36,910 nt of DNA, from positions 1,997,547 through 2,034,456 of the forward strand of contig CP070799.1 in the NCBI GenBank assembly GCA_020343535.1, written 5' to 3'. The notes below the pieces were generated by a model. That model saw nothing but the letters and a program-made list of their open reading frames with translations. It was not told where the DNA came from and made no database searches. Source of the stretch: Nitrospinaceae bacterium. Lineage in GTDB: Bacteria > Nitrospinota > Nitrospinia > Nitrospinales > VA-1. This document shows, piece after piece, positions 9,656-32,430 of the stretch. Position 1 is the first letter of the stretch. Each line of letters opens with the position of its first letter. The position numbers were made by a program, and so were the translations under genes.

Positions 9656-9703
9656 AGCAAAATTCCAGCCACCGGTGCTTGTCCGCCGGGGGGCGTTTTT
9701 CCG

Positions 9704-10534
9704 GTGAATCCCTGGCGGCTCATTGAGGACGGGCCGGGCGAGGGCGACGCCAATATGGCGCGGGACCACGCGCTGCTGCTCGCCGCCGACGCGGGGCGGG
9801 TGGCGCCCACGCTCAGGCTTTATGGCTGGCGGCGGCCGACGGTGAGCCTCGGACATTTTCAGGACCCGGCGCGGGCGGTCGATGCCGGGCGCTGCCAGGC
9901 GATGGCGGTTCCGGTGGTGCGCCGCCCCACCGGTGGCCGGGCGCTGTTGCATCATCATGAGATCACCTACAGCCTGGCGGTGCCGTTGCCGCATCCGTTG
10001 TTCACCGACGGGTTGCGGGAGACGTATGCCGCCGTCGCCCGCGCGTTGCTCGCCGCCGTCCGCGCGCTCGGGGTGGAGGAGGCCCAAGCCGCAGCAGAAA
10101 GCCGTGGCGGCTTGCGCTCGCCGGCGTGTTTTGCCACACTCAATCATGGCGAGATCAGCGTCGGCGGCCGCAAGCTTCTGGCGAGCGCCCAGCGCCGGCT
10201 GAAGCGGGCGTTTCTGCAGCACGGCTCGTTGCCGCTTGAAAAGCCGGGCGAGCTTTCCTATTCGCTGTTCCTCTATGAAAACGAAGCCGCCCGCAGCGCA
10301 GCGGGGGAGCGCCTGCAAAACAGCACCACCGCGCTTGCCGAGGTGGCTGGGTGTCCGGTACCGCCCGCCCGGGTGAGCGCCGCTTTTCGCCAGGGCTTTG
10401 CCGATGCTCTGGGCGTCGTCTTCGAGCCCGCTGGCTGGACGGCGTGGGAACGCGAGACGGCCCGGCGCCTGCAGGAGGAGGGTGAAGACCCTGCGCCACT
10501 GCCAAGACGCGGAGCCGGGCCCCGGTGCCCGTGA
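9704..10534 (+). CDS. lipM: Octanoyltransferase / lipoate-protein ligase family (LipM-like)
   Basis: This BPL/LPL-fold acyltransferase probably moves octanoyl from acyl-carrier protein to lipoyl domains, the first step of lipoate synthesis. It is 276 aa, as in LipM. It opens with NPWRLIEDGP and NMARDHALL, then has the RRPTGGRALLHH motif. A cysteine at residue 142 (SPACF) sits where LipM has its catalytic Cys. The invariant Lys region GRKLLASAQRR and LQHGSL follow. I chose GTG 9704 because family N-termini align there; the ribosome binding site is poor (a G run about 10 nt upstream). LplA-type ligase remains the alternative; the cysteine favours LipM. It is divergent from the FGE-like gene. 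Confidence 0.8.
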   Translation: MNPWRLIEDGPGEGDANMARDHALLLAADAGRVAPTLRLYGWRRPTVSLGHFQDPARAVDAGRCQAMAVPVVRRPTGGRALLHHHEITYSLAVPLPHPLFTDGLRETYAAVARALLAAVRALGVEEAQAAAESRGGLRSPACFATLNHGEISVGGRKLLASAQRRLKRAFLQHGSLPLEKPGELSYSLFLYENEAARSAAGERLQNSTTALAEVAGCPVPPARVSAAFRQGFADALGVVFEPAGWTAWERETARRLQEEGEDPAPLPRRGAGPRCP

Positions 10535-10539
10535 AGGTT

Positions 10540-10568
10540 TTGCTTGTTTCCGAGGATTCCTTTATAAT
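10540..10568 (+). promoter_or_regulatory. Promoter for the FG-GAP lipoprotein gene
   Basis: TTGCTT (10540-10545), a 17-nt spacer and a perfect TATAAT (10563-10568). The predicted transcript starts near 10575, giving a leader of about 57 nt that contains a TTGCGC/GCGCAA inverted repeat. Confidence 0.5.
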
Positions 10569-10631
10569 TTCGAATTTTGTCACCTTGCGCGGCGAACGCG
10601 GCGCAACCTTCCCATCCGCGAGGGGCATGCG

Positions 10632-11927
10632 ATGAAGGCCTGGAAACCGAGCCGTACAGGCGGTGCACCGTTTCATCCCGGAGCAGGGCGATGGGCGCTG
10701 GTGTTGTGCCTGCTGGCCGGGCTTGGGTTTGCCTGCAGCAAGGACCCCTCGGTGGCCGACAACCCGCACCGCCAACACTACCTCGACGCCACCCGCAAGC
10801 TCTTTTCCAAGCCGCTGCCGCAGCCGATTCTGCAGGCGGGCTTTACCGCGGCCGACCGCAACCGCCATCCCGACCTGCTGCTGCTCGCCGACCAGGGTGC
10901 GAAGGGCAAGGCGGTATTTGTCTATTTCAACCGGCCCACGGAAGGGAAGCTGGAGCAGACGGGCGAGCCGCAGACGGTGGCGGAGGCCGGTGAGGAAGTG
11001 CTGCACCTTGCCACCGCCGATTTCGACCGCGACCATGCGGACGATGTGATCCTGATCCTGAAAACCGGCCAGGGGATGCGGGTCAAAATCCTGTTCAATA
11101 ACGGCAAGGCCTATTACTACGAAAAGATCAAATACGCCCTGCCGCCGGTGCGCGCCGGCGTGACCCGCGTCGATCTCCTGGATGTCGACGACGACCGCGA
11201 CGTCGACCTGTTGTTCAGCGGGCCGCTGCTGCGCCACGGCGACGGACGCACGGACGAACACCAGGCGCAGTTGTTCATCAATAACGGCCTTGGGGAGTTT
11301 CGCGATTTCTCCCGCCTGCTGTTGCCGCCCGCGCCGCCGGGCATCTCCGGGGTTTCCTATGCCGACTATGATGGCGACCGCATCCCCGACCTGTTCGTCA
11401 TGTACGGCAACGGCCAGAACCGCATGTTTCTCAATAACGGCCTGGGCAAGTTCACCGATGCGACGAGGCGCTCGCTTCCCGCGATCGCGGACGAGACCGT
11501 GAGCGCCGACTGGGCGGACTTCGACCAGGATGAGGACAACGATCTGCTGGTCGTCAACCGGCGCCTCCTAAATTCGGCCACAAGCTCAGGCGAGACGTCC
11601 TATTTCCTTGAAAACAACGGCCGCGGCGAATTCAGCAAGAGATCCTACCCGGGCCTGCCCGCGCTTCCGGCCCTCAATGTCTACCTGCTCGACGCCAACG
11701 GCGACACGATGGCCGATGCGTTGATCCTGAACGGGGAGGGCGTGCTGTACCTGCAGGGAAAAGGCAAGTGGAGGTTCTCCAACGAGACGCTGCGGCGGCT
11801 GCCCCGGTTTCATCGTTTTCAGGAACTGGTGTTCGCCGATGTCGACCGGGATCATTTCCTGGACCTGTTCGGCATCGAAAACGGACCCCGGCGGCGGGGG
11901 TTGTTGTGGCTCAACCGTATCGATTGA
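10632..11927 (+). CDS. FG-GAP/VCBS repeat lipoprotein
   Basis: This is a 431-aa predicted lipoprotein (hydrophobic signal then GFAC) forming an integrin-like beta-propeller. At least six calcium-binding loops of DxDxDxxxD type are visible, in order: DFDRDHADD, DVDDDRDVD, DYDGDRIPD, DFDQDEDND, DANGDTMAD and DVDRDHFLD. The adjoining strands carry FINNGLGEF, FLNNGLGKF and FLENNGRGEF, which supports a six- or seven-bladed propeller. ATG 10632 has GAGGGG 8 nt upstream. Its own promoter precedes it and an intrinsic terminator follows directly, so it is probably a single-gene unit. Binding partner unknown. Confidence 0.88.
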   Translation: MKAWKPSRTGGAPFHPGAGRWALVLCLLAGLGFACSKDPSVADNPHRQHYLDATRKLFSKPLPQPILQAGFTAADRNRHPDLLLLADQGAKGKAVFVYFNRPTEGKLEQTGEPQTVAEAGEEVLHLATADFDRDHADDVILILKTGQGMRVKILFNNGKAYYYEKIKYALPPVRAGVTRVDLLDVDDDRDVDLLFSGPLLRHGDGRTDEHQAQLFINNGLGEFRDFSRLLLPPAPPGISGVSYADYDGDRIPDLFVMYGNGQNRMFLNNGLGKFTDATRRSLPAIADETVSADWADFDQDEDNDLLVVNRRLLNSATSSGETSYFLENNGRGEFSKRSYPGLPALPALNVYLLDANGDTMADALILNGEGVLYLQGKGKWRFSNETLRRLPRFHRFQELVFADVDRDHFLDLFGIENGPRRRGLLWLNRID

Positions 11928-11937
11928 CCCCGGGTTC

Positions 11938-11968
11938 GGCGGCCCGCCTCGGCGGGCGGCCAATTTTT
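11938..11968 (+). terminator. Intrinsic terminator after the FG-GAP lipoprotein gene
   Basis: The stem GCCCGCC/GGCGGGC (11942-11948 with 11951-11957) has a 2-nt loop region. It continues with three more pairs beyond one mismatch and is followed by AATTTTT. It lies between the FG-GAP gene stop and the start of the TerB-like gene, so the latter needs its own promoter or read-through. Confidence 0.65.
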
Positions 11969-11982
11969 ATAGCGAGGAGACG

Positions 11983-12882
11983 ATGTCCAAATTCAAGCAC
12001 CTTACCTTCTTAAAAGTTCTTTCCATCATCGCCTGGGCCGACGGCGAGGTCACCCATGCCGAGCTCAATCTGCTCAAATCCTTTTACCGGAAGTTCGGCC
12101 TCGACCGGCACGATATCCACGAACTCACCCCGTACCTTGAGGCCCCGGTGTCCGCCAAGCATCGCGACGAGCTGTTCCGCCAGCTGATCGACGAGCTGGC
12201 ATTGCCCGTCGAGCGGGAGGAAATCGTCCAGGCCCTGGAAGCGATCCAGGGCACCAAAAAGCGAGTCAGCGAGGAGGAGAAGGAGCTGGCGCGGAAGTTC
12301 ACCGCCTGGCTGCAAAAAGCCTCGCCGACCCGGCGCTCGCTCGGCCGGGTGCGAAACTTCATCACGCGCACCCTGTTCAGCGATTCGAGGGACATGGACC
12401 CCGATCTAGAAAAATACTTCAAGCGTCGCGTCCTGGATAAAATTCGCAGGAAGAGCGCCCGCCGTGGGCACAAGGTGGATCTGCCCGAGGAGGAAATGTA
12501 TCACCTTTGTCTGCTGGGCGCCCTGCTCGCCTCGGTCGCGCACGAGGGCGATGGTCTTGATGAGCAAGAGCGGGGGAAACTGGAGGCGATCCTGTCCGAG
12601 CGCTTCGCCTACACCGGCAAGACCCTCGCCCTGCTTCTCGATGTGGTGGAGGAGCAGGTGCGCCAGGGGTTCGATTTTCACGAGGTGATGACTCAGGTCA
12701 ACCAGACCCTGACCTACAACGAACGCCGGGCGCTGCTTGATTGCTTTTTCGCCATGGCCGTGGCCGACGGCGAGATCTCGCACCAGGAGTCGGAGGAAAT
12801 CCGCCGCATCACCAAGGCTATGCATATCCCCCACCAGGAATTCAAGGCGGCCAAGATCGCGGCGCTGGAGAAAATCCGCTGA
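11983..12882 (+). CDS. TerB-like helical protein with two TerB-type modules
   Basis: This 299-aa soluble all-helical protein has two copies of the TerB-type acidic helix motif: AWADGEVTHAELNLLKSF (near residue 17) and AVADGEISHQESEEIRRI (near residue 262). A third, degenerate module (LLASVAHEGDGLDEQER) sits between them. In TerB these acidic DGxxxxxE segments bind metal. Typical TerB is about 150 aa, so this is a multi-module relative. ATG 11983 has GAGGAG 4-5 nt upstream. It heads a likely operon with a small Zn-ribbon protein, dtd and an unknown gene. The molecular function is unknown. Confidence 0.8.
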   Translation: MSKFKHLTFLKVLSIIAWADGEVTHAELNLLKSFYRKFGLDRHDIHELTPYLEAPVSAKHRDELFRQLIDELALPVEREEIVQALEAIQGTKKRVSEEEKELARKFTAWLQKASPTRRSLGRVRNFITRTLFSDSRDMDPDLEKYFKRRVLDKIRRKSARRGHKVDLPEEEMYHLCLLGALLASVAHEGDGLDEQERGKLEAILSERFAYTGKTLALLLDVVEEQVRQGFDFHEVMTQVNQTLTYNERRALLDCFFAMAVADGEISHQESEEIRRITKAMHIPHQEFKAAKIAALEKIR

Positions 12883-14306: not shown

Positions 14307-15833
14307 CTAGAAAGGCAGGGAATTGAGGGCGATCTGCATGAACCCCGAGGGAAACAGGCCAATGGCCACGATGGCCAGCGAGCTCACGCCGACCAGTGCC
14401 CCCATGCCGGGGCTGACCGCGGGAGCGGGTTCTTCCTCGCTCTCGTGGAAATACATCATCACGATCACGCGCAGGTAAAAATAAACCGAAATAACGCTGG
14501 CGATCACGGCAAAAATGGTGATGAGCACGTAACCCGCCTTGATCGCAGCGACGAAGAGAAATAGCTTGCCGAAGAACCCCGCGGTGGGGGGAAAGCCCGC
14601 GAGGGACAGCATGAACAGGGTCATGGCCGCCGCCAGCAGCGGGTTGCGTTTGGCGAGGCCCTTGAAGCGGTTGATCGATGCGCCGTCCTGGCCTTCGCCC
14701 TCGAGGATGAACAGCACGGCAAAGGCGCCGACGTTCATGAACAGGTAAGCGCCCAGGTAGAAGAGAATGCTTGCGACCCCGTCCTCGCTGTTGGCGACGA
14801 TGCCGATGAGCAGGTAACCGGCGTGCGCGACGCCGGAGTAGGCCAGCATCCGCTTGACGTTGTCCTGAAAGATCGCCGCGGTGTTGCCGACCAGCATGGT
14901 CAACGCCGAAGCGCCGAACAGGATGGGCATCCAGACCTTCTGAATATCGGGCAGGGCGGTAAAAAACACCCGCGCGATGAGGGCGAACGCCGCCGCCTTG
15001 GTGGCCACCGACATGAACCCGGTGATGGGGGTCGGCGCGCCCTGGTAGACATCCGGGGTCCAGGAGTGGAAGGGCACCAGCGACACCTTGAACGCCATGC
15101 CGGAAAACATGAGACCCATGCCGATGAACACCAGGGTGTTTTTCATATATGGGTTTTCCTGCATGAGCGTGCCGATCGTGCGGATTTCCGTTGTTCCCGT
15201 TCCCGCGTAGATGAGGGCCATGCCGTAGACCAGGATGGCCGAGGCGAACGCCCCAGTGAGCAGGTATTTGACCGTCGATTCCTGAGACGCCAGGCATTCC
15301 CAGCTCAGTTGAGCGCCATCGGCGGGGCCTTCCCGTCCGGTGCCGTGCTTGGCGGAAAAGCCGCACAGGATGTACAGGGCGATGGAAAATATCTCCAGGG
15401 AAATGAACGCCGTGATCAGGGTCCCCGATTTGGCGAGGAACATCATGCCGGATACCGCGAGAAGCACCAGGGCGAAATACTCGGCCTTGTTCCTGTTGTC
15501 CGCCAGGGGGTAGCGCACGGAGCCGAAAAAAGCGAACAGCGACATAATCAGGAAGATTATATTGAAAGTTTGCGCGAACCGGTCGTGAATCAGCGCGTTG
15601 CTGAACATGCCCGGGCTGGCTCCGTTGCCCGCCGTGGGAGCGTCGCTCCAGAGGGCGAGAGAGAAGACGAGGGCGGCGGCGGTGCCGGCGAGGGCCACCA
15701 TGGAAAGGAAGCGGTTTGTATCGCACTCCTTCTTGAGGCCGAGAAGGAGCACCGCGAGGGCGGTGAAAATCACCGTAAGCTCCGGCCCGAGGGCCATCCA
15801 GTTCATATCGTCGAAATTGATATTGATTTCCAT
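14307..15833 (-). CDS. nuoN: NADH-quinone oxidoreductase subunit N, away from the main nuo cluster
   Basis: This antiporter-like proton-pumping subunit of the complex I membrane arm has 508 aa and about 14 membrane segments. NuoN hallmarks are clear: FHSWTPDVYQGAPTP, ATKAAAFALIARVF and RMLAYSGVAHAGYLLIG. ATG 15833 has GAGG about 6 nt upstream. An in-frame GTG 15 codons earlier (15878) gives an unlikely N-terminus. It is alone on the minus strand, about 15 kb from nuoA-G, which run the other way. It could complete the same complex or belong to a second set; the sequence here cannot decide. Confidence 0.95.
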   Translation of the reverse strand: MEININFDDMNWMALGPELTVIFTALAVLLLGLKKECDTNRFLSMVALAGTAAALVFSLALWSDAPTAGNGASPGMFSNALIHDRFAQTFNIIFLIMSLFAFFGSVRYPLADNRNKAEYFALVLLAVSGMMFLAKSGTLITAFISLEIFSIALYILCGFSAKHGTGREGPADGAQLSWECLASQESTVKYLLTGAFASAILVYGMALIYAGTGTTEIRTIGTLMQENPYMKNTLVFIGMGLMFSGMAFKVSLVPFHSWTPDVYQGAPTPITGFMSVATKAAAFALIARVFFTALPDIQKVWMPILFGASALTMLVGNTAAIFQDNVKRMLAYSGVAHAGYLLIGIVANSEDGVASILFYLGAYLFMNVGAFAVLFILEGEGQDGASINRFKGLAKRNPLLAAAMTLFMLSLAGFPPTAGFFGKLFLFVAAIKAGYVLITIFAVIASVISVYFYLRVIVMMYFHESEEEPAPAVSPGMGALVGVSSLAIVAIGLFPSGFMQIALNSLPF

Positions 15834-16115
15834 AGCGTCCTCGAATGGCGGCGCTTGCACCCGCCCGGGCACGGCCACCGGGTGGTGACGCGAGCCTGAC
15901 CCTCCTAAGCGTCGTAGGGTTTTTAAAGCATTTCCAGATATTTTTCAAGGGAATGTTTCCCGCTTCAAGGCCCCGCGCCGCCGCCGGGCCCTTAAAGGGG
16001 CTTTCCTCCGGCGCCCCCGGCCGAGGGCAGGGTTTCCCGTTCCGAAAATTAGGATATAATGAAATCCGATGCCGTTCCCTTCGGAAACCGGAAGACACAG
16101 GGTAGGATTGCATTG
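15834..16115. promoter_or_regulatory. Divergent promoter region between nuoN and the giant CHAT gene
   Basis: A 282-base spacer between divergent genes. On the plus strand a perfect TATAAT (16055-16060) implies a transcript starting near 16067, so the giant gene should start at ATG 16116 rather than the upstream ATG 16059, which is part of the -10 itself. No good -35 partner is seen. On the minus strand a TTGAAA and an A+T-rich stretch near 15925-15950 could serve nuoN. Confidence 0.4.
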
Positions 16116-19100
16116 ATGCTGAAGCGCACTGTCATCATTGGCCTTGTGGCCGCTTTTTACCTGGCCGGGAATGCTCCCGTCCGGGCCGAAATCGCCTACA
16201 ACGAGCCCCGGCAGTTGACCACCCACCCCGGGGAGGATTTCGCCGCGGTGATATCGCCGGACGGAACCTTCATTATTTATGTGTCGGACCAGTCGGGCAA
16301 CCTCGATCTGTGGATGAAGTTCATCGGCCCCGGGGTCCAGCCTCCGGCGCGCCGCCTCACGCAGCATATCGCCGAGGACAATTCGCCCGCCATCAGCCCG
16401 GACGGCAAGCGGGTGGCGTTCATCTCCCACCGCTTCGACCCGCGCGGCGACATCTTACTCCTCGATCTCGGCGGAGCGGAGGAAGGGGAGGCCGCGCCCG
16501 TCCTCCTCACGGACGACCGGTTGACCGAGGCCGACCCAGTGTGGTCGCGCGATGGAGGCTCCATCTATTTTGTCTCCGAAGATCCGGATACAAGGAAAGA
16601 AGGTCTGTTCCGCATCGATGTCCTTTCCGGCGCGCGTTCCCCCCTGATCGTGGAAGACGCGGTCAACCCCGCACCGTCGCCCGGCGGCGGTCACCTTGCC
16701 TACGCCAGGGGCGGTGCACAGGGCGGCCTGGGCGTCCTGGACCTTGAAACCGGTACGCGGACGGGGCTCACCACCGGCCCCGCCGTCGATATGTTCCCTA
16801 GCTGGCGGGAGGACGGGCGGCTCATCTACTTCGTGCGCTACCAGGACGACACCAACAAGGACGGGCGGCTGGACCTCGACGACAACCCGAATCTGTGGAG
16901 CGTCGAATGGGACGAGGGCCGGCCGGGCCTGCTGCGCCAGCTCACCGACAGTTCCACCTACGACCTCCTCCCCGCCGCCGGGTCCGGCGGGTTGCTCTTC
17001 ACTTCCAACCGAAAAAACAGCATCGATATCTGGCAGGTTCCCGGTCCGGGGTTGCTTCCGCGCATGGAGGGGTACGGCTGGGCGCTGCAGGCTGTGGAGG
17101 ACCTGTGCCCGAACCCCGCGTCCTACCGTTGTTTTTTGACCTACAACAACCTGCTGGGAGAATTCAAGGGGCGAAAGAGCCTGGCGCGCATCCGTTATCA
17201 GCTGGCGCGCGGTTATCAGGAGATGGGGCACCGGGACACCGCGCTGGCCGTCTACCGCGAACTCATCGAGGAGGACCCGGAGCCTGTGGAATACAAGGGG
17301 CTGGCCGAAATCGAACTGTTGCTCCTCGACATCGAGCGCTCCCGGGACGAAGGCCCGACGGCGCATCGCAGGGCCCTTGAGGCCGGGCTGGACGGGCTTG
17401 GCGAATTGTTCGAGCGCTACCGGGGCCGGGGACGGGTGGAATCGCGGGCGCTCTTTGAAACCGGCGCCCTTCATCTCGAGCTCGACGAGCCGGACCGGGC
17501 GCTCGCGTTTTTCAGGAAGGTAACGGAGGAGTACCCCCGGCAGCGGGTCATTTCCGCCGAGGCCGCCTTCGACCAGAGCCGCATCTACAGTTTGGTGGGG
17601 GATCAGCAGAAAGTGGTAGCTGCCTACGTCCAGGTGATCGCCGATTATTACGATGTGGACGCGTGGACCGACCGTGCCATCCAGGAAATTCTCAACCTTT
17701 ATGAACAGGCGCCGACACTGGAGAAGAAGGTTTCCAGTCTGCAGGCCCTCGCCGCCGAGCAATCCGGGCTGCCCCGCCTCGCCGCCGCCGTGCAGAACCG
17801 CATCGGTGAATTGTATCACCTGAATCGGGAAAACCTTCTCGCCAAGGAAGCGTACCGCGAAACCCTGGTTCGCTACCCGGAGGTTGCGGCGCGTGTTTTC
17901 GACGCCCAGGTGGCGCTTGCAAATATCTACGCCGAGGAGGAAAACTTCGAGGAAAGCCTGAAGCTCTATGAGCAACTCGGCGAGTTTAGCGCGCAGGTGG
18001 AGGACCTGCGCGAAGCGGCCCGGCAAGGGTGGATCGAGAAATCCCTGGAGAAGGGAAAGTGGGAGCTGCGGGTCGGTGAAATCAAACTGGCGCTTAAAAC
18101 ATTTCTCAAGGTGATGGAGGAAAGCCCCGCCACGGTGGAGGCGCACCGCGGTTACCTGTCCGCCCAGGCGGCTCTTGGCCAGGCGGCGCAAGCGGTGGCG
18201 TTTTACAAGGAGAGGGTGCGGGAGAATGAAACCTCGGCGGTGGAGGCCTACGCCCTCGGCCTCGCCTATACCTACCTCGACCCGCCCGGCCTCGACGCAG
18301 CCCGGCGAGAGATTTCCCGCGCCATCCTGCAGGACTCCCGGCAGGTTTTCTTTCATCAGACCCTGGGCTGGGTTTTCGAGCAGAAGGACCGCAAAGAGCC
18401 CGGCGGGGATTTTCTTGAGCGGGCCGTCGCGGAATACGAGGTCGCCCTCGCCCTGAACGATGAGACCGCCGATCCCGACAACGAAGCCGACCTGCTGCTC
18501 AATATGGGCAACGGCCACTACCTGCTGAAAAATTATTATGCGGCTTTCCTCTACTACGGCCGGCGCGCCAAGGCCGGGGTGGGATTTTTCAATCCGGCCC
18601 GCGAGGCCATCTTCCGCCAGCGGTTCGGCGAGAGCGCGTTCAAGGTCGGCGAGCCGGAGGCCGCCCTGGCGGAGTATGAGAAGGCGCTGGACCTGGTTTC
18701 CCGGCAAAACGATCTTGCCCGCATGGCCGAGCTCAACGATCGCATCGCGCTGGTGCACCAGGAGCTCGGCCAGCACGCCCGCGCGGTGGATCATTTTTCG
18801 CGCACTCTCGACCTCAACCGGCGGGCCGGCAACATGGGCTCCTTGTCGCGCTCGCTCCGAAACATCGCCAACAACTTGTTCCTGCTGAGCGAGAAAGGCG
18901 ATGACGACAGCCACGCCCTCAACCGGGCGCTCGGGAACTATTTCGCCGCCATCGACAACCTCGAAAAATACGGAGTGGTCGAGAAAAAGAAGAAAAAGAG
19001 ATCGGGGCTCATCGGCATCGACGTTGAGGCCGGCGCGGGCCCGGATGCCTCCGGCGCCGCGACGGGGTTCGACAAGGCGGGCGAGGAAAAACTGATCTTC

Positions 19101-22100
19101 CATTATATTGGCCGCATCTACGCCTCCTTCGGCGAGTACGGCCGCGCGGTGGACTACTTTAAAAAGAAGCTGGAGCGGATTCCAGACAACCTCGACCCGA
19201 AGAAGCACGTGCCGGTGCTACTCGAAAAGGCCCTGCTGCTGAACCAGATCGGATATTACATGCACCTCGGGGGGCAGGGGGAGGAGAGCGTGGAATGGTT
19301 CAGGGCCTCGTACGATATCAGCCGCCAACTGGCCAACGGTCGCGGCATCGCGGTCAACGCCGCCAACATCGGCCGCGTCGTGTTCGAGCAGGCGCGGACC
19401 CTGCCCGCGCCGCGGTTTTTGCCGAGGCTCGCCGATGCCGCGCGCCTGCTCGAGGAAGCGGCGGCGGACGTCCGGGCGATGGAAAATTTTGCCAGCCCGG
19501 AATACCTGGTGCTCATCCAGAATTACCTTGGGGTCTTTCATCACGCCCTGGCCTATCACGGCTCCGGCGTGGCGAGGGCGGAGGATGAGGCCCCGGCGTC
19601 CGCAAAGGCGGCGCTACGGGCGGCGCTCGACGGTCTTGGACGGCAAAGCCAAAGCGCGCTCAAATCCGCGGCGGCGTTAGAGGAAGGCCTGAAGCTGCTG
19701 GATTCGCGCAGCGTCGCCGGCCAACCGCACCTGCGGCAGGCCCTCGGGCAGAACATCGCCCTGTCGCGCTCACTTTTGGGGGGAGGCCCGAAAGGCGCGC
19801 CAGACCCCGCGCCGGTGGCGCCCGCCTGGCTCTGGCGCACGCTTTATCAGGCGGCGCTCACCGCCAGCGAGGGAGAGCGCCTGGATCGCCTGCGCGAAGC
19901 CGAGCGGGAGCTTGACCGCCTGCCCGCGGTGTTTTTGGTGCGCGATGCGCCGGGCGTGAAATTAATGGAAGACCTTTACCGGGAGCTCACCGCCTCATTA
20001 TTTGCCGCAGGAAGTATCGAGGAGGCCCTGCGTTTTTCCGAGAAGGGGCGGCAGCAGGCACTCCTCGCCCGGCAGCCCCGCCTCAAATTCGAGGATGCCG
20101 ACCGCCAGGCATACCAAGACGAGATCGATTCCCTTGGCGGGCGACTGCGGACGCTGGCCGAGGCGGCGGAAGAGGCGGAGGCCTTCGAAGCGGCGCTTGC
20201 CGAATACCAGGAGTTTCTCGCGATGGTCCGGGAGGACGACCCCCGGCTCGCGGTGCTTCTTACGCCGGACGCGCCGGATCCGAAGGACATAGCGCCCCTT
20301 CTCGCGCCGGGGGCTGGGTTGCTCAAGGTGCAACGGGTGGACGATGCCCTCCTGCTCTGGCTCATCGGCGGCGGTGGGGTGAAAGGCGAGCGGGTGGGGT
20401 TGCCCGCGGGGCTTTCGGGCCGCTTATCCGCCGGGCCCTTGACGGCGCCCACCGGGGCCGAAGCCGCTTTGCTGGCCTCGATCCTCGCGCCAGTTCAGGC
20501 CGAGCTCGAGCGGGCGAAGACGCTTTACCTGATCGCTGACGGGGCGCTCGAATTCCTGCCTTGGGCCGCGGCGCCCCTCGGCCCGGCGACGCTGGCCGAG
20601 AAAATGCCGTTGGTGTTCCTTGAGTCGGTCACGCACCTGAAATGGGCCACCGCCGCCCGCAACCTGTACAGCTCCCGTTACCTGGGGGTGGAATCGCCGC
20701 CGCTGCCCGCGCTGTCGGGGAAATTCGCCTCGGCGGAAACCCTGGCGGGCGACGCTGCCACCGGCGAGGCGTTTCGCGAACGGTGGGCGCATTTCGGCGT
20801 GGTCCACATCGACACGCCCGCCAGGCTCAGCCCCGACGATGCGGCTATCAACCTGACGGGCATGGAAAACCGCTTTGAACGCCTGGGCTTAAGCGACCTG
20901 CTCACACAGCCGGTCGAGGCGCATCTGTTCGCACTCGGCGACGTGGACGTTCGCTTCGATCCCGAAACCCGCCTGAGCCCCACCGCACCCCTCATCCGCG
21001 CGCTCACCTTCAAGGGCTATCCCGGCGTGTTGTTGCGCGCCGGCCCGAAGGATGAGGCCCTGCACGCCGAACTGTTGAATCTGTTCTTCGAGCGCTTGCC
21101 CGAGGGCCGCCCCGCCCGGGCCCTGCAGCTCGCGCAGGTCGAACTCGCCCGGCGGCATCCGGGCAATCTCGCCTGGGCAGGGTACCGGTTCTACGGGTTT
21201 CCCGGCATGGAGGAGGAAGAGAAAAACCTGTTTGCGCGCACGCATTTCGACGCCAACGTCGAGGCCGGGGCGAAGGCCTTTCTGGCGAAAGACTGGCTCG
21301 CGGCCATCGACCACCTGGAAAAGGCGCTGGCGCTCGTTCGCTTTCTTCCAGATTCGGCGCAGGCGATCAAGCTTCGGCAGACCCTCGCCCAGGCCGCCTA
21401 CAATCGGGAGGATTACCGCAAAGCCATCCATTACCAGGAGGCACTCCTGCCCGCCGTCGAACAGGCCGACGACCCGGAGGTGTTGGCCGAGGCCCTTTAC
21501 TTCCTCGGCATCCTCGAATCGCGGGCGGAAAACTTTCCTAAATCGGTGGAGCACCTGAAGCGGGCGCTGTCCATTTTCGAGCAATATGAAATTCTCGACC
21601 GGCTAGCCGAAAGCTACAGCACGCTGGGCATCGTCGAGGAAAACGCCCTCGACTACGACCAGGCCCTGGAAGCCTTCCGCCGTTCGCTCGAGATCAATCA
21701 GGAGATCGGCGAAGAGCTCAACCGCGGCCGCGAGCTTCGGCGCATCGGACGGATTTATTATCTCCGGCTCAGCCGCTACGCCGACGCTCGGAAATACTTC
21801 ACCGACGCCTACGACCTGTTCGCCGGGCTCGATGAAAAGGAGCAGATGGCCGAAAGCCTGCTGGAACTCGGCCTGGTCAGCGAAAAACAGGGCGACTTCG
21901 AGCGGGCGCTGGATTATTACCAGCGGGCCGAGGAGCTCGCGGCCGGTGAGGAGATGCGGGCGGTGCTGTCGAAAGCGCTTCTCTACCAGGCCAATTCGCA
22001 CTGGTATCAGGGCGCCTATCAGCAGGCTTTCCGCTTTCAGAAAAGCGCCCTCGACATCGCCGAAGCCCTCGGCGACAAGCGTCAGGAAGTGTTCATTTAT

Positions 22101-24083
22101 AATACGCTGGGACTCATCCATTGGACACTGAACGATTCCAAGCGGGCGCTGGAGAACCTGGAAAAGAGCCTTGAACTCGCCCGCGAAATCGCCTCGCCGC
22201 TGGATATCGCGACGGCCTACAACAACATCGGCCTGGTGCACCGGAAGAACGAGGCGTACGAAACGTCCATCGATTTCTTCAGCAAGGCCCTGGAAAAAGA
22301 CATCGAACTCAAATCCAAGTGGGGGCAGGGCTACACCCACCGCAATCTCGGCATGAGTCTGCTGAGGCTTGGCAGGCTCGACGAGGCGGAGACGCACATC
22401 GAACAGGCCGTCGTCCTAAGCGACGCTATCGGCAACCACATCAACCTTGTCAAATCGCTGCTGGAGTGCGGCCACCTGGCTCTGGAGAGAAAGAGCTTCG
22501 AGAAAGCCATCGAGGTTTTCAGGGAGACGGCGAAGCGGGAGGAAACGGTCAACCTGCCCGAGGTGCGGTGGCGCGCCCTTCGGGGCGAGGGCGCCGCCCT
22601 GGTCGCCGGCGGCCGCCGCAGGGAGGCGGCGGCGGTCTACAAGGAAGCGGTGGCGGTGGTGGATCGGCTGCGCGCCGCCATCAAGATCGAGGAGTTTCAG
22701 AACGGTTTCCTCACCGACAAGCAGGACGTTTATAAGGAACTGGTGCTTCTCCTGCTCGATATGGGGCGGGTGGAGGAGGCGTTCAACTACGCCGAGAAGG
22801 CCAAGTCGCGCAGTTTCATCGATCTGCTCGGCAACCAGAGATTCAGCCTCAAGAACGACGTGAGCCAGAGGCTCTACGATCAGCTGATGGCGAGCAAGCA
22901 ATCGATCCGCCTGATCGAGGACGCGCTGGCCGAGGCGCGAAGCAAGGAAGATGAGGCCGGGGCCACCCGGCTCGCGGGCGAGCTCGAGGCGGCGCGCAAC
23001 GGTTACCAGGACCTGCTCATCGCGGCCAAGGAGGAGAGCCCGCAGATCTCAAGCTTCGTCACCGTCGACGCCATTGAACTCGACGCCCTGCAGGGGCTTC
23101 TGGAAGAGGGGACGGCGCTGGTCGAGTACCTGGTGACCAGGCAGGAGCTCGTCGCCTGGGTGGTGACGAAAGGGGGCATCGAGGTGGTTCGCACTGCCGT
23201 CGCCGAGGCCGACCTGAACGCCAGGATCGCCGATTACAGGAAGCGTATTCAACAGCTCGCGCCAGTAGAGGAGGTGTCGGAGCGGTTGCATGGCTGGCTG
23301 ATCGCGCCGCTGGCCGGGCGCATCGCGGAGGCGCGCGTGCTCGGCATTGTGCCGCACGGGCACCTGCATTACCTGTCCTTCGCCTCGCTCAAGGACAAGG
23401 AGGCCTACCTCATCGAACGGCACCCGCTGTTCTATTCACCCAGCGCCTCGGTGCTCAGGTACACCTTTGGGCGAAAGCGCGAGATCAGCGGCCCGGTGAG
23501 GGTGCTGGCGCTCGGCAACCCGGACCTCGGCGATTTCAATTACGACCTGCCGCTGGCCGAAATGGAGGCCAACGCCATCCGCTGGGACTTTCCGACCGTT
23601 GACGTGTTGACGCGCGAGAAGGCGACGGAAACCTGGCTCAAGGAGCACATCGGCGATTATCAGATCATCCACATCGCCTCGCACGGCGAATTCGATCCGG
23701 TCAACCCGCTGTTCTCCTCGCTCAAGTTGACGAAGGACGAAGCCGCCGATGGCAACTTCGAGGTCAACGAAGTGTTTTCGCTCAAGATCGACGCCGACAT
23801 CGTCACCCTGAGCGCCTGCCAGACCGGACTTGGCGACATCAAGGGCGGCGACGAGCTGGTGGGCCTGAACCGCGCGTTCATCTACGCCGGCACGCACTCC
23901 ATCCTTTCCTCCCTGTGGCGGGTGAGCGACATCTCGACGGCGGTGCTCATCAAGCATTTCTACCGCAACTTCGCGCATGGCGACAAGGCCGAAAGCCTGC
24001 GCAAGGCGCAGCTCCTCGTCAAGAAGTTCTACCCCCATCCCTCCTACTGGGCCGGGTTCAGCCTGAGCGGCGACCATCGCTGA
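16116..24083 (+). CDS. Giant exported PD40-TPR-CHAT protein with two CHAT domains
   Basis: A 2655-aa protein, predicted to be exported by a signal peptide (MLKRTVIIGLVAAFYLAG..., cleavage near VRAE). Residues about 30-310 form a TolB/PD40 beta-propeller with repeated SPDGxxIxYVS-type blades. Residues about 350-1200 are TPR helices. About 1395-1705 is a CHAT-like domain without catalytic cysteine. About 1715-2200 is a second TPR array of kinesin-light-chain style. About 2325-2655 is a complete CHAT domain with H2523 (IASHGE) and C2568 (LSACQTG), the caspase-like dyad. CHAT domains are clan CD peptidases, so a regulated protease is likely; the substrate is unknown. The start is ATG 16116, since an upstream ATG at 16059 overlaps a TATAAT. 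The gene stands alone between divergent nuoN and a convergent gene. Confidence 0.93.
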   Translation: MLKRTVIIGLVAAFYLAGNAPVRAEIAYNEPRQLTTHPGEDFAAVISPDGTFIIYVSDQSGNLDLWMKFIGPGVQPPARRLTQHIAEDNSPAISPDGKRVAFISHRFDPRGDILLLDLGGAEEGEAAPVLLTDDRLTEADPVWSRDGGSIYFVSEDPDTRKEGLFRIDVLSGARSPLIVEDAVNPAPSPGGGHLAYARGGAQGGLGVLDLETGTRTGLTTGPAVDMFPSWREDGRLIYFVRYQDDTNKDGRLDLDDNPNLWSVEWDEGRPGLLRQLTDSSTYDLLPAAGSGGLLFTSNRKNSIDIWQVPGPGLLPRMEGYGWALQAVEDLCPNPASYRCFLTYNNLLGEFKGRKSLARIRYQLARGYQEMGHRDTALAVYRELIEEDPEPVEYKGLAEIELLLLDIERSRDEGPTAHRRALEAGLDGLGELFERYRGRGRVESRALFETGALHLELDEPDRALAFFRKVTEEYPRQRVISAEAAFDQSRIYSLVGDQQKVVAAYVQVIADYYDVDAWTDRAIQEILNLYEQAPTLEKKVSSLQALAAEQSGLPRLAAAVQNRIGELYHLNRENLLAKEAYRETLVRYPEVAARVFDAQVALANIYAEEENFEESLKLYEQLGEFSAQVEDLREAARQGWIEKSLEKGKWELRVGEIKLALKTFLKVMEESPATVEAHRGYLSAQAALGQAAQAVAFYKERVRENETSAVEAYALGLAYTYLDPPGLDAARREISRAILQDSRQVFFHQTLGWVFEQKDRKEPGGDFLERAVAEYEVALALNDETADPDNEADLLLNMGNGHYLLKNYYAAFLYYGRRAKAGVGFFNPAREAIFRQRFGESAFKVGEPEAALAEYEKALDLVSRQNDLARMAELNDRIALVHQELGQHARAVDHFSRTLDLNRRAGNMGSLSRSLRNIANNLFLLSEKGDDDSHALNRALGNYFAAIDNLEKYGVVEKKKKKRSGLIGIDVEAGAGPDASGAATGFDKAGEEKLIFHYIGRIYASFGEYGRAVDYFKKKLERIPDNLDPKKHVPVLLEKALLLNQIGYYMHLGGQGEESVEWFRASYDISRQLANGRGIAVNAANIGRVVFEQARTLPAPRFLPRLADAARLLEEAAADVRAMENFASPEYLVLIQNYLGVFHHALAYHGSGVARAEDEAPASAKAALRAALDGLGRQSQSALKSAAALEEGLKLLDSRSVAGQPHLRQALGQNIALSRSLLGGGPKGAPDPAPVAPAWLWRTLYQAALTASEGERLDRLREAERELDRLPAVFLVRDAPGVKLMEDLYRELTASLFAAGSIEEALRFSEKGRQQALLARQPRLKFEDADRQAYQDEIDSLGGRLRTLAEAAEEAEAFEAALAEYQEFLAMVREDDPRLAVLLTPDAPDPKDIAPLLAPGAGLLKVQRVDDALLLWLIGGGGVKGERVGLPAGLSGRLSAGPLTAPTGAEAALLASILAPVQAELERAKTLYLIADGALEFLPWAAAPLGPATLAEKMPLVFLESVTHLKWATAARNLYSSRYLGVESPPLPALSGKFASAETLAGDAATGEAFRERWAHFGVVHIDTPARLSPDDAAINLTGMENRFERLGLSDLLTQPVEAHLFALGDVDVRFDPETRLSPTAPLIRALTFKGYPGVLLRAGPKDEALHAELLNLFFERLPEGRPARALQLAQVELARRHPGNLAWAGYRFYGFPGMEEEEKNLFARTHFDANVEAGAKAFLAKDWLAAIDHLEKALALVRFLPDSAQAIKLRQTLAQAAYNREDYRKAIHYQEALLPAVEQADDPEVLAEALYFLGILESRAENFPKSVEHLKRALSIFEQYEILDRLAESYSTLGIVEENALDYDQALEAFRRSLEINQEIGEELNRGRELRRIGRIYYLRLSRYADARKYFTDAYDLFAGLDEKEQMAESLLELGLVSEKQGDFERALDYYQRAEELAAGEEMRAVLSKALLYQANSHWYQGAYQQAFRFQKSALDIAEALGDKRQEVFIYNTLGLIHWTLNDSKRALENLEKSLELAREIASPLDIATAYNNIGLVHRKNEAYETSIDFFSKALEKDIELKSKWGQGYTHRNLGMSLLRLGRLDEAETHIEQAVVLSDAIGNHINLVKSLLECGHLALERKSFEKAIEVFRETAKREETVNLPEVRWRALRGEGAALVAGGRRREAAAVYKEAVAVVDRLRAAIKIEEFQNGFLTDKQDVYKELVLLLLDMGRVEEAFNYAEKAKSRSFIDLLGNQRFSLKNDVSQRLYDQLMASKQSIRLIEDALAEARSKEDEAGATRLAGELEAARNGYQDLLIAAKEESPQISSFVTVDAIELDALQGLLEEGTALVEYLVTRQELVAWVVTKGGIEVVRTAVAEADLNARIADYRKRIQQLAPVEEVSERLHGWLIAPLAGRIAEARVLGIVPHGHLHYLSFASLKDKEAYLIERHPLFYSPSASVLRYTFGRKREISGPVRVLALGNPDLGDFNYDLPLAEMEANAIRWDFPTVDVLTREKATETWLKEHIGDYQIIHIASHGEFDPVNPLFSSLKLTKDEAADGNFEVNEVFSLKIDADIVTLSACQTGLGDIKGGDELVGLNRAFIYAGTHSILSSLWRVSDISTAVLIKHFYRNFAHGDKAESLRKAQLLVKKFYPHPSYWAGFSLSGDHR

Positions 24084-24117: not shown

Positions 24118-24786
24118 TCAGGACGGAACCTCATCGGGGCCTGGAAAAACCCGGCTGGCTTCCAGAAGGACCCAACGTTCGGACGTGTCGCCGATCACCA
24201 GGTCGAGATGATCGCCGATGCGCACCCGTTCGAGGATATTGTCCGAGAGGCGCAGAGAAAGGTCGTCTTTTTCCCGGGGGCAATGCAGGTGGATGCGGTC
24301 GCTTGAGATTTTCGCGACGCGAAACAGCGTGGCTCGGGTGAGGACGATTTCCGGCGGGGAAGCCAGCACCCGCTGGGCCTCGGCGTCGAGAAGGTGGCTG
24401 AGTTCCAGGCAGCGGCTCTGCTCGCCCGCCAGTTCGCGCATCAGGCAGTCCACCGCCAACTCTCCCAGCCCGGCCGGGTCGCCCCTTTTGTCAAGCCACT
24501 GTAGGAAGGAATACACCTCGAACAGGATGGCGTTGATCTCGTTTTTATCGGTGACGGAATTGAACGGCAGGAAAGCGACGATGAAATGGCTGAGATGCAG
24601 GGGCCGCAGGTTTTTCGGCTCGGCGGTGAGGCGCGGGTTTTCTTCCGGTCCCTCCGTCGCGAGGCCCGTTTCGACGAGGCTTTGGTGAAACAGGGCGATG
24701 CTCTTTCCCAACTCGCCCGCCGGCAGGTCCGCCGGAGCGATGCGGTGGAGGCGCGCGTATTCGGCCATGTGGTCGTACAGCGTCAC
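24118..24786 (-). CDS. Hypothetical protein coupled to the PhnW-like aminotransferase (222 aa)
   Basis: No family recognised. The first half is helical (MAEYARLHRIAPADL, SIALFHQSLVETGL, FLPFNSVTDKNEINAILFEVYSFLQWLDKRG). The second half looks like beta-strands (EIVLTRATLFRVAKIS, DRIHLHCP, RIGDHLDLVIGDTSERWVLLEASRVFPG). There is no signal peptide or membrane helix. The GTG start (24786) overlaps the stop of the aminotransferase gene as GTGA, so translation is probably coupled and the products may work together. It ends 34 nt from the end of the giant CHAT gene, which converges on it. Confidence 0.72.
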   Translation of the reverse strand: MTLYDHMAEYARLHRIAPADLPAGELGKSIALFHQSLVETGLATEGPEENPRLTAEPKNLRPLHLSHFIVAFLPFNSVTDKNEINAILFEVYSFLQWLDKRGDPAGLGELAVDCLMRELAGEQSRCLELSHLLDAEAQRVLASPPEIVLTRATLFRVAKISSDRIHLHCPREKDDLSLRLSDNILERVRIGDHLDLVIGDTSERWVLLEASRVFPGPDEVPS

Positions 24787-25886
24787 GGCCGGCCCCCGCT
24801 GCGGGAAGAGTGCTCGGCGAGGGTCTCTCCCAGCGCTTGCAAAAACGTGTCGAATTCGGCGGGTTGGATGTCGCCGATGTTGGCGATCCGGAAGGCGTGG
24901 CTCTTCAGGTTGCCCTGGCCGGCGTAAATGACGAACCCGGCCGCCTTGAGGCGATCGTGCAGTTTGGGGTAGGCGAGGCCGTCCGGCAGCTTCAGGGCGG
25001 TGAGCACATTGGATTGCCACTCTTCGGGGAGAAGGGCGGACAGGCCCATTTCGGCAAACCCATTTCTTAACCGGAGAGCCGCGGCGCGGGTGCGTTCGAT
25101 CCGGCGGGCGACGGTTTCTTCCGCCAATTCGTCGAGGGCGGCATCGAAGGCGTAGTGCGCTTGCACGGCGGGGGTGAACAAGGTTTGCCCCGATTCCTGG
25201 GCGCGGTGGTGCGCCGCCAGGTTGAAGTACAGCGAACGCGCGGGGATGGCCTCCAGGCGGGGAAGGTCGTCCTTCCGCACCAGGGCGAAGGACACGCCGG
25301 GAAGTCCCTGCACGCATTTGTTGGCGGTGCCCACCGCCAGATCGACGGTGTCAAAATCGAAGGTATCACCGGCGAGGCTGCTGATGGCGTCGACGAGCAC
25401 TTTCTTGCCGGCGCGGCGTGCAAGGGCGCTCGCTTCGGCAAGGGGGTTGAGCAGTCCGGTGGTGGTTTCGTGATGGACCAGGGCCATCGCCTCGATGCTG
25501 GGGTCGGCCGCCAGCGCCTGTTCGACGGCGGCCAGGTCCGGCGGGGTTCCCCACGGCGTTTCCATCACGGTTCGGGGGATGCCGTGGACCTCGGCGATTC
25601 TGGCGATGCGCTCGCCGTAAACCCCGTTCGAAATAACGAGGAGCTTGCGTTCCGGCGACACGAACGAACAGACGGCCATCTCCAGCGCCGCAGTGCCGGA
25701 GCCTGAAATCAGCACCGGCGTGAATTCATTGCCGACGCCGAACACCCCGGCGAGCTTGCGGCGGATGGCTTGCGCGAGCAGGGCGAATTCTTCCTCGCGG
25801 TGGCACAGGTCGCCCCGAAGCTGGGCGCGGGCCACCTTCTCGCTGACGTTCACCGGTCCGGGGTTGAGCAGAACCGTTCGTTTCAT
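24783..25886 (-). CDS. phnW: Class V aminotransferase, PhnW-like (2-aminoethylphosphonate-pyruvate transaminase family)
   Basis: This 367-aa PLP enzyme of the class V fold begins LLNPGPVNVSEKV. It has GSGTAALEMAV in the cofactor pocket, VDAISSLAGD with the PLP-ring Asp, and the lysine motif TANKCVQGLPGVSF, which closely matches the PhnW lysine motif. Family members move the amino group of 2-aminoethylphosphonate, or a serine/alanine-type donor, to pyruvate or glyoxylate. No other phosphonate genes are nearby, so the exact substrate is unproven. ATG 25886 has GAAGGA about 6 nt upstream. It is coupled to an unknown gene downstream by a GTGA overlap and divergent from the DUF4159 gene. Confidence 0.78.
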   Translation of the reverse strand: MKRTVLLNPGPVNVSEKVARAQLRGDLCHREEEFALLAQAIRRKLAGVFGVGNEFTPVLISGSGTAALEMAVCSFVSPERKLLVISNGVYGERIARIAEVHGIPRTVMETPWGTPPDLAAVEQALAADPSIEAMALVHHETTTGLLNPLAEASALARRAGKKVLVDAISSLAGDTFDFDTVDLAVGTANKCVQGLPGVSFALVRKDDLPRLEAIPARSLYFNLAAHHRAQESGQTLFTPAVQAHYAFDAALDELAEETVARRIERTRAAALRLRNGFAEMGLSALLPEEWQSNVLTALKLPDGLAYPKLHDRLKAAGFVIYAGQGNLKSHAFRIANIGDIQPAEFDTFLQALGETLAEHSSRSGGRP

Positions 25887-25996
25887 CCTTATTCCTTCGT
25901 GTTTCTTTTTTATGGGCGGCGTATTCGCCATTGGGCGCCAGTCTAACTCAGGGGATCAGGCAAGGCAAAAGGAAATCCCGCTATTAAGGAACTCGA

Positions 25997-26031: not shown

Positions 26032-26796
26032 ATGCGATTTCTTGGTGCGACAATCTTTTTCCTCCTGACCTGGCTTCCATTCGGTCCGCCCGCCCCGGCG
26101 GCGGCGGAGGATTATTCCAGTTTCACCATTCCCCTGCTCAGGTATCCGGGCGGCAATTTCAACCCACGTCCCGAGGCCCTGCGCAGCCTGCTTGCCCAGG
26201 TGGCCGCGCGCACGTCCATCGAGGTCAATCGCGAGCCGGTGGTGCTGGAAGCCACCGATGCCCGGCTGTACTGCTATCCTTTCCTTTATATGGGCGGCAA
26301 CGAGGGGTTTCGGCCCTTTTCCGCCGAGGCGCTGGCGGCGCTAAGAAATTACCTTTCGTTCGGCGGGTTCCTTTTTATTGACGACAATTCCGGCAAAGCG
26401 GGCTCGGCGTTCGACACATCGGTGAGAAAGCTGATCGCCGATCTGTTTCCGAAGAACCCGTTGCAGAAGATCCCCCGCGATCATTCGATCTACCGTTCGT
26501 TTTACCTGATCAACCAGCCCGCGGGCCGGGTGAGGGTGAACGCCTACCTGGAAGGACTTTCCATCAAGGGGCGCACGGTCATCGTCTACAGCGCCAACGA
26601 CCAGGGCGGCGCCTGGTCGCGGGACAAGCTCGGCAACTGGAATCACGGCATCATCGCAGGCGGTTACCAGGTACGGCAGCATAGCATCCGCCTGGGGGTG
26701 AACATTGTCATGTACGCCCTCACGCTTGATTATAAAAAGGACATGGTGCATCTGCCCATCATCCTGGAACGGCTCCGGCGGTATCATTCACAGTGA
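26032..26796 (+). CDS. DUF4159 domain protein, exported
   Basis: This 254-aa protein has a signal peptide (MRFLGATIFFLLTWLPFG, cleavage near APAAAED). The mature part matches the DUF4159 pattern by eye: FTIPLLRYPGGNFNPRP, YPFLYMGGNEGF, NYLSFGGFLFIDDNSG and RDHSIYRSFY. These elements are typical of a glutamine-amidotransferase-like fold without the catalytic set. In many bacteria such genes sit at the end of MoxR-DUF58-VWA clusters. The stop overlaps the next start as GTGA, so the two products probably act together in the envelope. Biochemical role unknown. Confidence 0.85.
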   Translation: MRFLGATIFFLLTWLPFGPPAPAAAEDYSSFTIPLLRYPGGNFNPRPEALRSLLAQVAARTSIEVNREPVVLEATDARLYCYPFLYMGGNEGFRPFSAEALAALRNYLSFGGFLFIDDNSGKAGSAFDTSVRKLIADLFPKNPLQKIPRDHSIYRSFYLINQPAGRVRVNAYLEGLSIKGRTVIVYSANDQGGAWSRDKLGNWNHGIIAGGYQVRQHSIRLGVNIVMYALTLDYKKDMVHLPIILERLRRYHSQ

Positions 26797-29081
26797 ACAT
26801 TCTCATTAAATGGCTGGGGCTCAACCCCGATGAATACAACCAGTGGGAAATCCGCTGGGCAGCCGCCGGGCCGGGTCTCGAAGCGGCGGTTCTGGTGCTC
26901 CTGGTGCCGCTTGCTTTGTGGTTTTTCTGGACCAGCCTCGCACGGATTCGATCCCCCTGGAGGAAGGTTTTTCTGCTCCTGCTAAGGGTGCTGGCCTTTT
27001 CCGCCTTGCTGCTCGTTCTGTTCCGTCCGGAACTCGAACTGCGCAAGGGGCATTACCTGAAGAATTCCATCGCCGTCCTGCTCGACAACAGCAAGAGCCT
27101 GTCGATCAAAACTTTTCCCGACGAGCAGCCGAGGGCGAGCCTGGTTCGCCAGGCGATGGAGAAAAACCAGCCCTATTTCGAGCGGCTCGCCAAGACGTTC
27201 AATGTGGATTTTTATTTTGTTTCCGACCGTCCCGTCCAGGTGTCGTCGGGTGAGATCGCCACGCATTACCAACCGAGGGAACCGTTCACCGATTTTGGCC
27301 GGGTGTTCGCCGACCTGCGGAAGAAATACGAGGACCAGTCCTTGAAGGGTGTGATGCTGTTTTCCGACGGCGCCGACCTCAATCAGGCGCCGGATGAAAT
27401 TTCAGAGGAGCTGAGGCGGGCCGTCGCCTCCATCGACAGCCCGATCCACGCCTTTCAGACCGGCAGCAACGATCTGTTCAAGGATCTCGCCATCGAGGCC
27501 GTCGACGCGCCGGACTTTGGCTTCGTTCAACAGCCGGTCAATCTTTCGGTGACGGTGAACGCCTCGTCCATCGGCAACAAGAATGTGTCGCTGGTGTTGA
27601 AGGAGGGGGATAACGTCCTGATTTCAAAAATGATCGAGATCCGCGAGGGCACCGCGCGTTATCCGGTGGACCTCCAGTTCACGCCGCGGGCGCTCGGCAA
27701 GCGGGTGTACAGCCTGTCGCTGCCGCTGTTTGCCGGCGAGTCGATCGCCAGCAACAACCGGCGGGAATTTCAGGTGAAAGTCATCCCCGACCGCATTCGC
27801 GTTCTGCACCTGAACGGTCGCCCCTCGTGGGACTCGCGGTTTCTCCGCGAAGTGCTGGTGAACAATCCCAAGGTGGACCTGTTGTCCTTTTTCATCCTGC
27901 GCACCCTTGGCGACGACGTTGCCGCACCCACCACCGAGCTTAGCCTCATCCCTTTTCCGTCGAACCTGCTGTTCACCGATTACCTGAACTCGTTCGACCT
28001 CGTCATCTTCCAGAACTTTAAATACTCACCGTTCATCGAGAAGAAGCACCTGGAAAATGTCAAGGCGTTCGTCGAGAACGGCGGCGCGTTCCTGATGATC
28101 GGTGGCAACCTGTCGTTCCAGGGCGGGGAATACGAGCGCACCGCCATCGAGGACCTTCTCCCGGTTTCGCTCCTGCGCGAGAAGCAGGCCTGGAGAAAGG
28201 ACGAAATTGCATCGCGTCCGGTGAAGGGATTCCTCAACCACCCGATTCTGCGCCTTGAAAAGGACGACGCGGCGAACGAGAAGATCTGGCGCTCGCTGCC
28301 GCCGCTCAGTACCCTGAACACCGGGCTCAGGCCGGAAACCGGTGCGCAGGTGCTCGTCGAGGATGGCAAGGGGGGGCCGGTGCTGGCGGTGGCGAAGAAG
28401 GGCCGGGGGCGGGCGGCGCTCATCGCCAGCGATTCGTCGTGGAACTGGAATTTTCGCCGCGTCGGCGAAGGCGGCAGCGGCCGCTATTACCAGCGGTTCT
28501 GGAACAACATGGTGGCCTGGCTCTCGGGCGACCCGGCCACCCAGGTCCTGCAACTGGAAACCGACCGGGAGCAATACCACGAAGGCGACGAGGTGCTCAT
28601 CAAGGGGCGGGTGCTCAAGGAGGATTACCAGCCCGCCGCGGGGGAGGCGGTGACCCTCACCCTCCGTTCGCCGGCGGGGGGCGTGGATACGCACGCGCTC
28701 AAGGCCGGCCCGCTGGGGGAAGTCGCCTTTGCTTTCACTCCGGAAGAGGAGGGGTTTTACCACGCACGCGCCGAAGTGAAGCGCGGCAAGGAGACCCTGA
28801 GCGCGGAGGCCGGCTTCGGCGTGTTCGGCGACACGGCGGAATTTCAGAAGCCGCTGGTGAATCCCGCCCTGCTGGAAAAAATCGCCGCGATCAGCGGCGG
28901 CACGGCCTCGGTCTTGAGTGCCCAGACGGACCTGTCCGGCATCCATTTCGAGAACCCGGAAGTGCTGGTCAAGACCCGCAGCAAGGCGTTTTCCCTTTGG
29001 GACAATTGGGCGGCCTACGGGTTGATCGCCGGTCTTCTTTTTCTCGAATGGTGGCTGCGCAGAAAATCTGGCCTCAGTTGA
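26793..29081 (+). CDS. Membrane protein with VWA-like and glutamine-amidotransferase-like domains
   Basis: This 762-aa integral membrane protein has two N-terminal membrane helices (about residues 30-75). A VWA-like domain follows, with the metal-site motif DNSKS (near residue 98, matching DxSxS) and LFSDGADL. Next come a beta-sandwich stretch, then a class I glutamine-amidotransferase-like region (about 333-450: IRVLHLNGRPSWDSRFL, FDLVIFQNFKY, FVENGGAFLMIGGN). No catalytic Cys nucleophile is evident there. A second Ig-like part and one C-terminal helix (about 740-757) followed by Arg/Lys complete it. It starts at GTG 26793, overlapping the DUF4159 stop. It is probably a large periplasmic module anchored at both ends. 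Confidence 0.85.
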   Translation: MNILIKWLGLNPDEYNQWEIRWAAAGPGLEAAVLVLLVPLALWFFWTSLARIRSPWRKVFLLLLRVLAFSALLLVLFRPELELRKGHYLKNSIAVLLDNSKSLSIKTFPDEQPRASLVRQAMEKNQPYFERLAKTFNVDFYFVSDRPVQVSSGEIATHYQPREPFTDFGRVFADLRKKYEDQSLKGVMLFSDGADLNQAPDEISEELRRAVASIDSPIHAFQTGSNDLFKDLAIEAVDAPDFGFVQQPVNLSVTVNASSIGNKNVSLVLKEGDNVLISKMIEIREGTARYPVDLQFTPRALGKRVYSLSLPLFAGESIASNNRREFQVKVIPDRIRVLHLNGRPSWDSRFLREVLVNNPKVDLLSFFILRTLGDDVAAPTTELSLIPFPSNLLFTDYLNSFDLVIFQNFKYSPFIEKKHLENVKAFVENGGAFLMIGGNLSFQGGEYERTAIEDLLPVSLLREKQAWRKDEIASRPVKGFLNHPILRLEKDDAANEKIWRSLPPLSTLNTGLRPETGAQVLVEDGKGGPVLAVAKKGRGRAALIASDSSWNWNFRRVGEGGSGRYYQRFWNNMVAWLSGDPATQVLQLETDREQYHEGDEVLIKGRVLKEDYQPAAGEAVTLTLRSPAGGVDTHALKAGPLGEVAFAFTPEEEGFYHARAEVKRGKETLSAEAGFGVFGDTAEFQKPLVNPALLEKIAAISGGTASVLSAQTDLSGIHFENPEVLVKTRSKAFSLWDNWAAYGLIAGLLFLEWWLRRKSGLS

Positions 29082-32424: not shown

Positions 32425-32430
32425 ACCGTC

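Follow-up and report, generated by a model that had tools for sequence, protein, structure and literature searches.

A predicted exported propeller-TPR-CHAT protein of a Nitrospinaceae bacterium combines a degenerate and an intact caspase-like module

The plus-strand gene at positions 16116..24083 of the window (the whole stretch of Nitrospinaceae DNA that was analysed, 36,910 nucleotides) encodes a protein of 2655 amino acids that is probably a single-chain cysteine protease of the TPR-CHAT/separase type, both exported and regulated. Its domains follow one another in the order signal peptide, PD40/TolB-like propeller, TPR array, CHAT, second TPR array and second CHAT, and this domain content was counted in favour of an exported protease. 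A His-Cys dyad that is invariant in the second CHAT module (CHAT2) and absent from the first (CHAT1) was likewise counted for the putative protease. A first-pass annotation of the same DNA had proposed a periplasmic or surface protease, which is supported as likely, as is the exported PD40-TPR-CHAT-TPR-CHAT layout, the activity itself being a prediction. Its further suggestion, a novel trigger and a novel substrate, is possible.

The reading frame runs without a stop codon across all 2655 residues, in agreement with the open reading frame described in that annotation. Near-full-length orthologues are 48–60% identical to the protein and a same-genus relative, split over two contig pieces, is 78–81% identical, which indicates that the frame is not a chance one. 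The start codon is unsettled: the same-genus relative (L004) reads ATC opposite the ATG at 16116 of the window, and an in-frame ATG at 16059, 19 codons upstream, is common to both. A scan for sigma-70 promoters upstream of the gene found nothing. In two orthologues, L048 (genome G020) and L032 (genome G045), an in-frame TAG lies within the CHAT gene, reflecting either assembly error or decay. Searched in full against Pfam, the protein matched CHAT in two stretches (2.1e-71), PD40 in three stretches (8.8e-26) and many TPR families, so that the PD40 and CHAT profiles expected from the first reading were both recovered.

The first 24 residues (16116..16187) resemble a signal peptide with cleavage after VRA; the N-terminus, MLKRTVIIGLVAAFYLAGNAPVRA|E, follows the n-h-c pattern of Sec type I signals. 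In a rule-based check, a hydrophobic N-terminus with an AxA-like (small-x-small) site was present in all 26 rows examined, which comprised the window and 24 distinct relatives, with one genome entered twice. The signal peptide previously read from the 16116 start was thus recovered by rule and repeated in the orthologues examined, and the alternative start at 16059 likewise gives a signal-peptide-like N-terminus. Further, the protein contains only four cysteines in 2655 residues, of which three are conserved, namely C331, C339 and the catalytic Cys2568. The mean Cys content is 0.20% in the family and 0.99% for six cytoplasmic proteins encoded in the window. C331 and C339 (17106..17132), located between the propeller and the first TPR array, are kept in 26 of 27 sequences and probably form a disulfide; in L152, a relative from the second phylum, the pair is not conserved as such. 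A hydropathy scan gave no transmembrane stretch standing out beyond the N-terminus. By the sequence signs tested, i.e., recurring rule-based signal peptides and a low Cys content with one conserved non-catalytic pair, the protein would be exported, and the same signs were counted for its reading as an exported protease.

The bacterial TPR-CHAT proteases that have been studied well act in the cytoplasm and are triggered by RNA. The premise that export sets the present protein apart was not supported, since other TPR-CHAT proteins of the phylum have lipobox-like or signal-peptide-like starts and a transmembrane protein, DdvA, is among the structural matches described below. These other TPR-CHAT proteins are single-module, several have lipobox-like starts, and an exported TPR-CHAT protein is therefore not unique to this gene. 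Three of them (L157, L158 and L160) share the lipobox-like start, the TPRs and a CHAT domain with the protein studied here, but they are 795–1075 residues long, with one CHAT module and without a propeller.

The propeller spans approximately residues 25–320 (16188..17075), with about six blades by eye. When the segment was searched in isolation, PD40 was matched at 1.8e-31, and in a search of PDB sequences residues 41–240 matched TolB at an E value of 5.8e-9; together with the full-length PD40 matches, this bears out the TolB-like propeller initially assigned. The likeness to TolB and other PD40 propeller proteins lies in the PD40 repeats and the periplasmic propeller, whereas TolB consists of the propeller only and here it is joined to TPR-CHAT units; the TolB equivalog score was 72 bits, far below the cut-off of 343. 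The first TPR array follows at approximately residues 350–1170 (17163..19625), with TPR_12 at 1.3e-20 and other TPR families in Pfam. The second, at approximately residues 1715–2150 (21258..22565), was matched by TPR_12 and TPR_1, and in the AF2 model it forms a regular solenoid of helix pairs with pLDDT mostly 80–94.

CHAT1 (residues 1283–1697; 19962..21206) was recognized by Pfam when searched alone (CHAT, PF12770; 4.9e-11, 43 bits compared to a cut-off of 24), and both catalytic residues are absent from it in all 27 aligned sequences. The column of CHAT2 His2523 is occupied in CHAT1 by Pro, Arg, Lys, Thr or Ala and that of Cys2568 by Val, Ile, Leu or Ala, and no Cys was found in the columns adjoining the missing catalytic one in the same 27 sequences. 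The earlier assignment of two CHAT domains was therefore upheld as regards their presence in Pfam and failed as regards two proteases; an arrangement with two active CHATs was discarded on the same alignment.

Measured against the same-genus relative, CHAT1 has a dN/dS of 0.25; it evolves faster than CHAT2, yet it is kept under purifying selection. The AF2 model of the module reached a pLDDT of 87.5, and its best PDB matches in Foldseek were the TPR-CHAT protein of Craspase, human separase and the anti-sigma factor DdvA. TM-scores on the CHAT1 query were modest (0.34–0.51 among the significant matches), so that the resemblance is one of fold and not of close kinship. No viral relatives of the CHAT1 fold were found at E <= 0.001. 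The model also matched the axonemal central-apparatus entries 7n6g and 9ijj, which are not known to be proteases. From its alignment columns and its model, CHAT1 is predicted to be a conserved pseudoprotease that keeps a Craspase/separase-like fold. The match to Craspase and separase, in which a pseudo-caspase adjoins the active domain (PMC10028731), was counted for the protease reading.

CHAT1 also bears on a different reading, which we consider unlikely though deserving of weight, according to which the protein would be a non-proteolytic envelope scaffold, with a propeller and TPRs that arrange other proteins and a CHAT2 that serves as a binding domain, as dead CHATs may. The retention of the CHAT1 fold without catalysis and its match to the axonemal entries would suit such a role, as would the fact that most of the protein is made up of TPRs and propeller. 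It is at odds with CHAT2, where His2523 and Cys2568 are invariant in 26 of 26 sequences and the core is the most constrained part.

The CHAT2 module, an intact caspase-like domain, covers residues 2205–2655 (22728..24080), with the Pfam CHAT match at 2386–2653. Its predicted catalytic residues are His2523 in the motif ASHG (23682..23684) and Cys2568 in the motif SACQTG (23817..23819). Compared to the same-genus relative, dN/dS was 0.10 for the module and 0.046 for its core, the strongest constraint measured; this value and the purifying selection on CHAT1 were counted for the regulated protease. Aligned with hhalign, the CHAT1 region (1180–1735) and the CHAT2 region (2141–2655) matched over 415 columns with a probability of 99.7 and an E value of 2e-25, which indicates that they are copies of one module. 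In the tree, sequences group by module across genomes: CHAT2 forms one clade (99/99), and a single branch sets the CHAT1 sequences apart in 80% of bootstraps, a grouping that is less well supported and has long branches. The simplest reading would be a single ancient duplication or fusion that was inherited from then on, and the common descent of the modules and their grouping by module were likewise counted for the protease. A 1200-residue model of both CHATs had a pTM of 0.49 with low confidence in CHAT2; it was good only for the second TPR array and does not serve to judge whether CHAT1 touches CHAT2.

Pairs of a dead and an active domain are known from separase and from Csx29, the TPR-CHAT protein of Craspase (type III-E CRISPR), whose CHAT1 has been described as a pseudo-caspase and whose CHAT2 as active, in a comparison with separase (PMC10028731). 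By analogy with this arrangement in Csx29, a pseudo-caspase lobe may also lie within each CHAT module of the present protein. In both proteins a TPR array precedes a pseudo-caspase and a CHAT domain with a His-Cys dyad, which is predicted to be active in the present protein. The Craspase protein is among the best Foldseek matches of CHAT1. The NCBIfam Csx29 model matched the CHAT2 region at 1.5e-12, with 47 bits, far below its cut-off of 300. In contrast to Csx29, which has approximately 650–750 residues, the present protein has 2655, appears to be exported and carries a TolB-like propeller and a doubled TPR-CHAT unit, with no Cas7-11 or Csx30 alongside. Eukaryotic separase resembles it in the long helical-repeat region, may resemble it in the succession of a dead and an active caspase-like domain, and gave Foldseek matches to CHAT1 with E values down to 3.4e-9; however, separase is intracellular, cleaves cohesin and has neither propeller nor signal peptide, and no sequence match between the two was detectable. 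DdvA (PDB 8rot and 8rw5), a transmembrane anti-sigma factor according to the PDB title, is likewise bacterial and membrane-linked and matches CHAT1 in structure, whereas neither an anti-sigma domain nor a transmembrane anchor was detected in the CHAT protein. We filed the protein with the TPR-CHAT/separase-like proteases, as a new variant.

Should the protein be a protease of this type, its site of action would be the periplasm or the cell surface. An envelope ligand would be bound by the propeller and the first TPR array, CHAT1, being dead, would act as a structural or allosteric relay, and the second TPR array would hold the substrate or gate CHAT2; upon a change in the state of the ligand, CHAT2 would cleave one or a few envelope proteins. 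As a more tentative proposal, which we hold as possible rather than probable, the protein could be a self-contained separase-like envelope signalling protease, with a single chain that joins a sensor outside the cytoplasm, made of propeller and TPRs, to a relay formed by the dead CHAT and to an active CHAT. It would then parallel Craspase, with an envelope ligand in place of RNA as what is sensed. If true, this would extend regulation of the caspase/separase type to the bacterial envelope, in an exported and propeller-fused form, and in a family with a similar dead-plus-active protease plan that spans an order of Nitrospina relatives and reaches a second phylum. It also offers a clear test, with one Cys, one His and one gene without obligate neighbours.

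A full CHAT1 module (>600 bits) was found in 37 of 77 genomes of the phylum. All 37 carriers belong to the order of the window, for which 64 genomes, incomplete ones included, were available, leaving 27 apparent non-carriers. Outside that order, both modules occur in a partial copy in G059, a genome from another order of the same class. Relatives were also found in 4 of 24 genomes of a second phylum (that of G077), taken as distinct since the search of the first phylum had returned no genome from it. Two of these are open frames, of 2629 and 2497 amino acids, in both of which Pfam confirmed PD40, TPR and CHAT. The PD40-TPR-CHAT-TPR-CHAT architecture thus recurs in the order and in a second phylum, and the full-length relatives in the latter were counted for an exported protease. 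As many relatives lack the gene, it is dispensable in those, which was weighed against the protease reading.

In carriers, the CHAT gene lies between a divergent nuoN and a minus-strand pair encoding a small protein and a PhnW-like aminotransferase, beyond which DUF4159 and then a GATase-like membrane protein are found. Many genomes of the order preserve the block Dtd-NuoN-CHAT-small-PhnW-like-DUF4159-GATase, as would be expected if the CHAT protein formed a fixed envelope system with the downstream DUF4159 and GATase-like membrane proteins, perhaps together with the divergent nuoN. We consider this improbable. CHAT-less genomes keep the order of the flanks, whole in L057–L059 and L063 and mostly in L061, L062 and L064, and the GATase-like gene occurs in 51 of 60 relatives, CHAT-less ones included. 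Of the neighbour proteins tested, none had a homologue alongside the second-phylum relatives, save generic TPR matches. The neighbours were therefore rejected as dedicated partners, and the persistence of the flanks indicates that the CHAT gene was either cleanly lost or acquired at a single site.

An involvement of the protease in defence or conflict, killing the cell or damaging an invader, seems about equally improbable. For Craspase and further caspase-like systems, a role in defence is known or has been proposed (PMC10028731, PMC9729208, PMC10907252), and the patchy presence of the CHAT gene was counted for such a role. However, its fixed chromosomal place and vertical descent differ from mobile islands, the exported location of the protein speaks against such a role, and PADLOC found no CRISPR or known defence link, its matches being limited to a generic TPR model and, marginally, to BovA (3.7e-4). 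Pfam identified nuo, Dtd, TerB, FG-GAP, FGE-sulfatase, aminotransferase, DUF4159 and GATase-like genes as the neighbours in the window, with neither Cas7-11 nor Csx30 among those adjoining the CHAT gene, in keeping with the earlier remark that no CRISPR partner is nearby.

Several further features of the surroundings were observed. The gene nuoN stands alone at 14307–15878, divergent from the CHAT gene and approximately 15 kb from the cluster of nuoB, C, D, F and G (31313–36910), and it also holds its place in CHAT-less genomes. In some genera (L047, L048, L050, L055, L061 and L062), a protein of 411 residues (p411) is encoded between the CHAT gene and nuoN, and it remains near nuoN in CHAT-less relatives. 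The aminotransferase at 24783–25931 lies at the cut-off for 2-aminoethylphosphonate enzymes (PhnW/AepZ; 361.0 compared to 360.8 bits) and possibly belongs to phosphonate metabolism, and at 26032–29081 a DUF4159 protein with a signal-peptide-like start is followed by the membrane protein with a GATase1-like domain. On the other side, an FGE-sulfatase-like protein is encoded at 8576–10318 and FG-GAP and TerB proteins at 10398–12882, the latter pair belonging to the conserved gene order.
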